This document shows positions 31,917 to 37,577 of a stretch of 64,000 bases of DNA, piece after piece. The position numbers and the translations under genes are program-made. Source of the stretch: Candidatus Siliceabacter maunaloa. GTDB lineage: Bacteria; Actinomycetota; Thermoleophilia; Solirubrobacterales; Solirubrobacteraceae. How positions within the stretch are numbered: the first letter of the stretch is position 1; each line of letters opens with the position of its first letter. The stretch covers positions 62,001 to 126,000 of the forward strand of contig JANDLV010000002.1 of assembly GCA_024330185.1 (NCBI GenBank). The letters run 5' to 3'. The notes beneath the pieces are model-generated. The model made no database searches and was not told the origin of the DNA. It saw only the letters and a program-made list of their open reading frames with translations.

Positions 31917-32822
31917 CTAGTCGCTTCCGCGCCGCGCCGCCACGAGCAGCGCGTGCCCCATCAGGACGACTCGTCCACCGCGCTCGGTCGCCTCCGCGGC
32001 GACCGCGCGCTCGGCGGCGTCTCGCAGCGTGGCCGCGCGGTCGGCCGGCAGGCGCGCCAGCGCACCGGCCAGCGGGCCCAGGACGACGGTCAGGCGGTCC
32101 ACCGCCTCCTCCCGGGAGTCGAAGGCCATGCGCACCGGCACCGGCTCGCGGGTGCCCAGCTTGGCCCAGCCCTTGAGCCCGTCGCGCACCGCGTCCGCCG
32201 TGGCCCAGGCCACCGGACCGTCCCTCCCCCCGCCCACGGGCGCCTCGGCGATGGCGGCCAGGCGCAGCAGCCGCCCCACCGCGCCCTCGCGCCCCCACAG
32301 CACCACCGCGATCCGCCCACCCGGCCGGGTCACCCGCGCGAGCTCGTGCAGTGCCCGCTTCGGGCGGACGCAGAAGGCCGGCGCGAAGGTGGACAGAGCG
32401 GCATCGAACTCGCCGTCTGCGAAGGGCAGCGACTCCAGGTCGCCGTCACGCCAGTCGATCTTCAGGCCCTCGGCGTCAGCGCGCTCGCGTGCGCGCTCCA
32501 CGAGCGGTTCGATCGGGTCGCAGCCGACGACCTCGGCGCCCATCCGCGCGGCGGCCAGCGCGAGGTTGCCGTCACCGCACCCGGCGTCGAGGACGCGGTG
32601 GCCAACGTCGATGAAGACGCTCTCGACCAGCGTGTCGGCGGCGTGGCGCCACAGCATGCCGTCGGACTCCCCCCAGTCCATCAGGAGCCGCGTGGCCGGG
32701 TCCAGCGGCTCGCCGGCCTCTCCGCGGTCCTGCTCGGTGGCCGGCTCGTCGGGCAGGAGCCGCTGGCGCAGCCCCGTGAAGAGTGCGCGGCGGGAGACCC
32801 CGCCTTCGGAGGCGTCAGACAA
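31917..32822 (-). CDS. SAM-dependent methyltransferase between infC and rpmI
   Basis: About 301 residues; a class I (Rossmann-fold) methyltransferase. [20 protein letters not shown] is motif [20 protein letters not shown] gives motifs II-III and [13 protein letters not shown] is the later strand. The substrate is unknown; small molecules or quinones are typical for this subgroup. The start is uncertain: TTG at 32822 ([15 protein letters not shown]) is preferred because the paralogue at 36618-37577 aligns there (SDRAVSRRGLL), but a TTG at 32885 is also open. The likely start lies inside the 3' arm of the 162-nt RNA element. Confidence 0.8.
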
Positions 32823-32968
32823 CAAGTACGCATTCCGGCGGGCCCCGCCCGCCGCTACCGGCACCCGGCGCCCGCAGCCGAACAACCAGTGCGACAGCGG
32901 CCACCGGGCACCGGTAGCGACGACCCGGACTCCCCCGGGTTATGCGCACTTGTTGCCCGACGCCTCCG
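32807..32968 (-). promoter_or_regulatory. 162-nt structured RNA / inverted-repeat element after infC
   Basis: The outer arms 32942-32968 and 32807-32833 are inverted copies matching at 24 of 27 positions. The inner arms 32904-32919 and 32853-32868 match at 14 of 16. In minus-strand RNA all five differences become G-U pairs, giving unbroken 27-bp and 16-bp stems; in plus-strand RNA they would be A-C mismatches. Small hairpins GCGGGC-CCC-GCCCGC and CCCGG/CCGGG lie between the stems. The element starts 4 nt after the infC stop, and its 3' arm contains the likely TTG start of the methyltransferase. No family is recognised; a miniature mobile element with long terminal repeats is the alternative. 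Confidence 0.7.
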
Positions 32969-32972
32969 TCGC

Positions 32973-33620
32973 TCATCCCGCGTTGGCGGCAGCGTCGCCG
33001 CTGCCGGCGCTCGCGGCGGCGGCGGCCTCGTCGCGCTCCTGCACCGCTTCCTCGTCCACGGTGCCCGCGATCACGGACTTGGACGGGCCGAGCATCATGG
33101 TCATGTTGCGCCCGTCCTGGGTGGGGCGCTGGTCCACGGTGGCCAGCTCGCTGAGCTCCTCGGCCAGGCGGTTGAGGATCGCCTCGCCACGCTCGGGATG
33201 GGTCACCTCCCGCCCGCGGAACATGATGGTCACCTTGACCTTGTCCTTGTGGCGCAGGAAGCGCTCGACGTGGCCCTTCTTGGTCGCGTAGTCGTGCTCG
33301 GCGATCTTGGGGCGGAACTTGATCTCGCGCACCACGATCGACTGCTGGTGCTTGCGCGCCTGCTTCTGCTTCTGGGCCTGCTCGTACTTGTACTTCGAGT
33401 AGTCGAGCACCCGGCAGACGGGCGGGCGGGCCTGCGCGGCGACCTCCACGAGGTCGAGCTCGCGCTCGCGGGCGTAGTTCTGGGCGTCCTCGGTCTTCAT
33501 GACGCCGACCTGCTCGCCGTTCTCGTCGACCAGCCGCACCTCGGGAGCGCGGATGCGCTCGTTGACACGGGTCTGATCCCGCTCGGGCGGGCGCCGGTCG
33601 AACCTGCGGGGAACCGGCAC
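32973..33620 (-). CDS. infC: Translation initiation factor IF-3
   Basis: 215 residues. IF-3 binds the 30S subunit, prevents premature 50S joining and checks the start codon. RVNERIRAPEVRLVDENG starts the N-domain and DYSKYKYEQAQKQKQARK the linker. REIKFRPKIAEHDYATK and VTIMFRGREVTHPERG are in the C-domain, followed by an Ala-rich tail of about 35 residues not found in E. coli. The GTG at 33620 is the annotated choice; upstream in-frame AUA or CUA codons are possible because infC often uses rare starts. A 95-bp gap separates it from thrS. Confidence 0.97.
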   Translation of the reverse strand: MPVPRRFDRRPPERDQTRVNERIRAPEVRLVDENGEQVGVMKTEDAQNYARERELDLVEVAAQARPPVCRVLDYSKYKYEQAQKQKQARKHQQSIVVREIKFRPKIAEHDYATKKGHVERFLRHKDKVKVTIMFRGREVTHPERGEAILNRLAEELSELATVDQRPTQDGRNMTMMLGPSKSVIAGTVDEEAVQERDEAAAAASAGSGDAAANAG

Positions 33621-36617: not shown

Positions 36618-37577
36618 TCAGGTCGCCGCGCGGCGAGCGCGCACCACGAGGTAGGGCGCCGACAGCCCGATGCCCTCCGGGGCGGGCTGCGCCCACTTGG
36701 CGACCAGCGCGGCGACCTGGGCGCGCAGCTCCCCGGCCGCGCCGGCCGGGAGGAGGTCGTGGGCGGCGGCCAGCGGCGCGAGGGCGCTCCGCAACCGGCC
36801 TGCGGCCTCCTCCTCGTCAGCGAAGCGCATCTCGACGGTGGCCAGCTCGAAGTCGAGGTCCTCGCCGCCGAAGGGCTCGATCTCCTGGCGCAGGCGCTCC
36901 TCGCTGCCCCACGCGAGCGGACCGGGCACATCGACGGGCACAGGGTCCCACCGACCGGCAAGGCGTAGCAGGCCGCCGATCGGCCCGCGCGACAACCACG
37001 CGCTGAGGCCGACGCTCCCACCCGGGCGCACGACCCGGAAGAGCTCGGTCAACGTGGCGGCGGGGGTCTGCAGGCAGAACATCGGGGCCAGGCCGGCCAA
37101 CGCATGATCGAAGCTCGCCTCGGGGAAGGGCAGCGCTTCCAGCCCACCCTGGACAGGCTCCAGGGTCAGCCCCTGTCGGCGAGCGCGGGTACGGGCGTGC
37201 TCGCCCAACGCCGCGGAGGGCTCGCAGGCGGTGACCACCGCGCCGCGCAAGGCGCACCGCAGGGCGACGTTCCCGTCCCCCGCACCGGCGTCGAGCACCC
37301 GTTCCCCTGCTTGGTACCGGGCGCCGCCGACGAGCTGCGAAGCGGAGGCGTCCCACAACGCCATCTCGTGGCAGGCCTCCCAGGCGGCGGCCCACCGAGC
37401 TCGCAGTGACGGGGTGGGCTCGCCGCGCGACGGCGTCGGCTCCCGTGGTGACGGGAGGTCGTCGCGCACGGGGGTCGCCTCGTCGCCTCCGGGGGCCAGG
37501 TGACGCAACCCGAGGCCGAGCAGGCCACGGCGGGAGACGGCACGGTCGGACACGGCGAGCAGTCTACGAAGGCGCAT
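36618..37577 (-). CDS. SAM-dependent methyltransferase, paralogue of the infC-rpmI one
   Basis: A 319-residue class I methyltransferase. Motif I is VLDAGAGDGNVALRCALRGA and the later strand is VRPGGSVGLSAWL. It shares with the gene at 31917-32822 the order SD-xx-VSRRxL, a variable linker, motif I, F-C-x2-PxxxL, GR/GPIGGLLRLA and a C-terminal helical region, so the two are paralogues. The substrate is unknown. The ATG at 37577 has a close AAGGAG; a GTG at 37553 is an alternative. It is divergent from phoX, sharing a putative PHO box. Confidence 0.8.
   Translation of the reverse strand: MRLRRLLAVSDRAVSRRGLLGLGLRHLAPGGDEATPVRDDLPSPREPTPSRGEPTPSLRARWAAAWEACHEMALWDASASQLVGGARYQAGERVLDAGAGDGNVALRCALRGAVVTACEPSAALGEHARTRARRQGLTLEPVQGGLEALPFPEASFDHALAGLAPMFCLQTPAATLTELFRVVRPGGSVGLSAWLSRGPIGGLLRLAGRWDPVPVDVPGPLAWGSEERLRQEIEPFGGEDLDFELATVEMRFADEEEAAGRLRSALAPLAAAHDLLPAGAAGELRAQVAALVAKWAQPAPEGIGLSAPYLVVRARRAAT

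Follow-up and report, generated by a model that had tools for sequence, protein, structure and literature searches.

The structured region downstream of infC in the analysed window (a stretch of 64,000 nucleotides) is very probably a copy of a mobile element, a palindrome of about 160–170 bp that is dispersed, encodes no protein and would be non-autonomous and directed to T(N)A targets. The element recurs at unrelated sites and moves as a unit bounded exactly by the palindrome. Moreover, extensive compensatory changes have preserved the full-length hairpin, with its conserved apex, on a single fixed strand.

The structure of the window copy was evaluated via RNA folding. The minus-strand RNA of positions 32807–32968, which corresponds to the infC sense, formed a single hairpin with a stem of about 78 bp. 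Its energy was −141.5 kcal/mol, compared with −81.8 ± 4.4 kcal/mol in shuffled sequences (z −13.5; 0 of 200 shuffles), whereas the plus-strand RNA of the same region was 39 kcal/mol weaker (−102.5 kcal/mol, z −10.0). The initial annotation had described nested inverted repeats of 27 and 16 bp, and both were recovered: the outer 27-bp arms had a complementarity of 89%, and the inner 16-bp arms were located and paired in the fold (Table 1). In the list of inverted repeats of the window, the 47-nt and 27-nt arm pairs of the element held ranks 1 and 7. Two small hairpins had also been placed between the arms. That region was structured, but the minus-strand fold paired the two together within one continuous stem. 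When the window copy was aligned with its own reverse complement under scores favouring neither strand (strand-neutral self-alignment), 60 Watson–Crick pairs, 10 G-U pairs, 1 A-C pair and 8 other pairs were obtained. Hence, the one-sided bias is real, and the differences between the arms are nearly all G-U in the infC sense, as had been noticed. A scan of Rfam 15 gave no family at the gathering score, in keeping with the earlier description of an RNA-like element outside the named families, and relaxed E-values gave nothing but generic microRNA-type hairpin noise.

Table 1. Positions of the element and its neighbouring features in the window.
Feature	Position	Strand	Basis
infC, translation initiation factor IF-3	32973..33620	-	Pfam PF00707/PF05198
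ATG overlapping the infC stop (ATGA, 32976-32973), inferred original methyltransferase start (M-S-D-...), now split off by the element	32974..32976	-	Comparison with G001 and the paralogue
GAC, probable left copy of the 3-bp target duplication (tentative)	32968..32970	-	Sequence; G001 and in-window paralogue
Palindromic, very probably mobile element, 160 nt, one continuous hairpin	32808..32967	- (sense = infC strand)	Fold, homologues; boundaries by comparison
5' outer arm of the sense-strand stem	32942..32968	-	Inverted repeat I2
5' inner arm (16 bp) of the sense-strand stem	32904..32919	-	Sequence; paired in fold
Apical hairpin CGCACTGGTTGTTC, diverged from the family apex CGTACTGGTGGTACG	32880..32893	-	Comparison with family copies
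3' inner arm (16 bp) of the sense-strand stem	32853..32868	-	Sequence; paired in fold
3' outer arm of the sense-strand stem; TTG codons in methyltransferase frame	32807..32833	-	Inverted repeat I2
GAA, probable right duplication copy, one mismatch (tentative)	32805..32807	-	Sequence
Class I SAM methyltransferase ORF; listed first codons inside the element	31917..32885	-	Pfam PF08241, ORF list

The distribution of the element was explored by sequence and covariance searches. A blastn search of 60 related genomes with the window copy gave diverged copies in four of them (70–83% identity over the core), none at infC. Seven copies were used to build the first covariance model, in which 17 of 46 pairs showed compensatory changes; it matched in 39 of the 146 genomes of the family. 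About 60 loci were examined, and the unit was a palindrome of about 160–170 bp whose ends mostly read CTAGTG...CACTAG and whose apex was conserved. Flanking sequences were mutually unrelated save at a few homologous sites, and no recurring flanking gene was found beside them. A broader model (R2) was trained on 52 sequences, the window copy included. It gave 27 matches in the own genome (G000), which resolved into about 20 distinct full-length sites besides the window copy. The reading of a single copy in this genome, suggested by blastn at E ≤ 1 (one convincing copy, against about 21 by the model), was thereby overturned. The own-genome copies belonged mainly to three subfamilies, whose members were 86–100% identical and had unrelated flanks; among the copies examined, none was more than 85% identical to the window copy.

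The hairpin was also detected in more distant organisms. A pattern scan of public genomes located it in several Lentzea species, Fodinicola feengrottensis, a Thermoleophilaceae MAG, an Actinomycetota MAG and a MAG labelled Deltaproteobacteria, and a Streptomyces plasmid also carries it. Matches at E ≤ 1e-6 occurred in at least 22 of 396 sampled Actinomycetota genomes, a lower bound with seven candidates scored per genome. Pattern matches in viral contigs and in the genome records L222, L235, L243 and L249 were not palindromes and were discarded as chance. The MAG labelled Deltaproteobacteria (BS150m-G23) contained two nearly identical copies (L239 and L255), which point either to transfer outside Actinomycetota or to a wrongly binned contig. 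In L137 and L142–L148 (genus g25) and in subfamily ii of the own genome, a subfamily was seen whose ends are GGG...CCC where others have GTG...CAC; its flanks were often TTA/TAA rather than CTAG.

Identical copies, empty sites and target duplications all indicated mobility. Genome G071 contained at least 40 copies, some of them cut by contig ends, and five were 100% identical across exactly CTAG...CTAG at unrelated sites. Three filled sites had empty counterparts with a single CTAG in the sister genomes G068, G070 and G035, and a remnant of the element with an internal deletion was present in G069. In the own genome, near-identical cores were surrounded by duplications of TA (within CTAG), TAA, TTA, TCA or CAA, indicating that the element duplicates a TA or a 3-bp, mostly TNA, target. 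Terminal inverted repeats with a target-site duplication were thus found in the family, with a tentative duplication (GAC/GAA) at the window copy. The copies were short (<300 bp), dispersed and multiple, and they shared no protein gene. Copies elsewhere with target duplications had been named in the initial annotation as the mark of a mobile element, and they were found together with the empty sites. Stem-shortened derivatives of the own genome (L390, L391, L396, L398 and L403) kept both ends and had lost the middle of the stem, as expected of replication across a palindrome. Many contigs of G071 started or stopped about 120–127 nt inside an element; assemblies therefore break at these repeats, and draft genomes give copy numbers that are too low. 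At L226 (Lentzea), near 333–518, a second end of another subfamily shared the CTAG of a hairpin element, which suggests that insertion, tandem or nested, took place at the CTAG of the element itself.

The window site was compared with that of G001, a genome of the same genus, which served as its empty counterpart. In G001 the methyltransferase gene follows infC directly without a hairpin, and its frame reads CTG-A-D-G-V-S-R-R(-G) just past the infC stop. The methyltransferase had been regarded earlier as the inserted gene, and this gene pair contradicts that assignment. No CTAG target is claimed for the window site, where G001 reads GGGTAGTCC. In the window, ATG AGC GAC (M-S-D) is followed by the element and then by GAA GGC GGG GTC TCC (E-G-G-V-S), and a paralogous methyltransferase in the window starts GTG-S-D-R-A-V-S-R-R(-G). 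The two SAM-methyltransferase ORFs (31917–32885 and 36618–37577, both on the minus strand) have similar N-termini (xSDxxVSRRxL) and flank the infC–thrS block. The most economical reading of these sequences is that the 160-nt element was probably inserted just downstream of infC, between methyltransferase codons 3 and 4, with a 3-bp GAC/GAA duplication in which one base has changed. The window copy is without the family's usual TA/TNA flanks, and the duplication, being one base off, is tentative. The 163 nt added would shift the frame, so that the remaining 322-aa ORF has only TTG/GTG starts near its beginning, all buried inside the hairpin; the 3' arm does overlap the likely present start, as had been pointed out. 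Judged from the sequence, translation of the methyltransferase is likely to be reduced or lost.

A copy that arrived by transposition may also have been co-opted, so that the window copy is now selected for control of the infC operon. The window copy is intact, with its 10 G-U pairs against 1 A-C pair, and it was the best own-genome match of model R2 (130 bits, as a member of the training set). However, a recent arrival fits this intactness equally, and no other genome examined has the element at the infC site. Co-option was therefore considered improbable.

The folded shape of the element, not its sequence, is retained across many actinobacteria. The 52 full-length copies from all organisms found were aligned with MAFFT without structure, and compensatory double changes were observed in 52 of 52 consensus pairs. 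Standard pairs filled 87.8% of the cells, compared with 61.1% after shuffling and 38–47% with the partner slid, and the covariation score was 0.682 versus 0.211. These compensatory changes back the structure proposed earlier. The strand bias was likewise general. G-U exceeded A-C by 555 to 108 across 63 copies in the strand-neutral self-alignment and, when 23 diverse representatives were scored against the consensus structure, by 154 to 13. The excess ranged from 5:1 to 12:1 and lay on one fixed strand whatever the direction of the neighbouring genes. The orientation of the element to these genes was even (21 ++ and 21 −− by heuristic ORF calls), indicating that transcription of the neighbours does not explain the bias. 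Furthermore, the sense strand was favoured by folding energy in 52 of 52 copies with RNA and DNA parameters alike; hence, the data fit RNA and single-stranded DNA equally.

A palindrome may also be kept perfect by template-switch correction at the DNA level instead of selection on one strand. The arms vary between copies yet remain complementary, and the stem-shortened derivatives are typical of replication across palindromes. However, template switching gives Watson–Crick pairs equally on both strands, which is at odds with the observed excess of G-U. Some wobble columns were conserved as well (UG in 36 of 52 copies), and the old copies of genus g18 had many mismatches. This explanation is thus very unlikely.

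The fate of inserted copies was followed in genus g18. Among its 24 copies, the changes from the subfamily consensus at Watson–Crick pairs were 41 G-U, 38 A-C and 104 other mismatches. These copies decay without strand preference after insertion, indicating that the fold is probably kept for mobility, presumably in the mobile lineage, and not for host regulation. In the own-genome subfamilies the derived differences leaned to G-U (16 versus 5 A-C), and weak per-site constraint or a mix of ages is possible.

The element had originally been interpreted as a cis-regulatory RNA of the infC–methyltransferase transcript, with a hairpin that masks the TTG start or terminates the transcript of infC. 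The sense-strand fold is very stable, the sole in-frame starts of the methyltransferase lie within the hairpin, and an incidental effect of the hairpin on this gene is likely. Nevertheless, regulation tied to infC is largely refuted by position and must now be regarded as most unlikely. The same genome has about 20 further copies at unrelated sites, whereas G001 has the gene pair without the hairpin. No convincing match to the element was obtained at about 30 infC loci of relatives (two blastn searches, with the stop-adjacent sequence read for about 25), and a position beside the same gene is thus not conserved. The sequence that follows the hairpin on the minus strand, AAGGCGGGGTC, contains no T run of the kind that marks an intrinsic terminator, and the decay of the g18 copies without G-U preference argues against a host function at each site.

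For the mobile element, a trans-acting enzyme would cut T(N)A sites, often at stop codons according to heuristic ORF calls. The one-strand hairpin, as RNA or single-stranded DNA, would be required for mobility, and the inserted copies would then decay at their sites. Three candidate partners were rejected, since none was present in all the element-rich genomes searched: Y1/HUH transposases were absent from the element-rich genomes G071, G072 and G030, IS630-type DDE_3 transposases were nearly absent from those searched, and PF01609 DDE transposases were absent from G162. Among the families searched in the draft assemblies, no enzyme or autonomous IS with matching ends was found. In G000 and G071, elements of the IS982 and IS701 families occupy the CTAG target that the hairpin element also uses, but their terminal repeats do not match the hairpin. 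One IS701-family element (L416 1324–2746, G071) lies in the terminal CTAG of a hairpin element. The CTAG-flanked IS of G000 is IS982-like, and a link to IS5-like target choice was accordingly abandoned. The element may move via its own hairpin RNA in a SINE-like manner, in which an RNA hairpin of about 80 bp would be copied or guided into T(N)A sites, including stop codons, with its wobbles and apex bound by a trans-acting protein; this route is unlikely. Transfer as single-stranded DNA by a Y1 HUH transposase, as for REP/RAYT or IS200/IS605-type elements, is scarcely credible, since the one-strand hairpin, the tetranucleotide at the hairpin foot and the location at gene ends agree with it, whereas the lack of a Y1 transposase in genomes rich in recent copies, the length of 160–170 bp and the 2–3 bp target duplications on both sides do not.

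The features tested place the element among the MITE-like palindromic repeats of bacteria (ERIC, YPAL and Correia), of which YPAL is the nearest in size. YPAL or RU-2 (Yersinia palindromic sequence) is a dispersed intergenic palindrome of about 168 bp that forms a hairpin, has target duplications and has moved recently, as its empty and filled sites show (PMC2229807, PMC2267715); the present element, likened by description, shares all of these properties. However, the ends of YPAL lack TA and its duplications span 3–26 bp (PMC2229807), whereas the element has T(N)A duplications, a conserved apex, a range of many genera and stems unrelated in sequence. ERIC/IRU (127 bp), Correia/NEMIS and RUP are non-autonomous repeats with terminal inverted repeats and TA termini, mostly intergenic and mostly A+T-rich (PMC2229807). 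The element is likewise short and non-autonomous, with terminal inverted repeats and TA at its termini, but it is G+C-rich, nearly all of it is paired, its wobbles are strongly biased to one strand, and no partner transposase is known for it. REP/BIME sequences are palindromes, often outside genes, which are thought to act as hairpins and are associated with Y1 transposases (RAYT); the element resembles them in its palindromic form, its frequent location outside genes and its presumed action as a hairpin. REPs, however, are 20–40 bp long and carry GTAG or CGTC tags (PMC3733652), whereas the element is 160–170 bp and several element-rich genomes have no Y1 gene. A recent MITE review (PMC10969869) contained no match for actinobacteria, Streptomyces or CTAG. 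The element seems to be absent from Rfam and the open-access literature, and it is called undescribed with respect to these resources.

These results describe a widespread mobile element whose shape is kept while its sequence has almost wholly turned over, so that sequence searches miss its copies. They also warn against taking strong covariation downstream of a gene as proof of a riboswitch, and the mobiliser of the hairpin element is a concrete target. Moreover, the element provides a testable case of a transposable element that inherits neither a protein nor a fixed sequence but the folded form of one of its strands.
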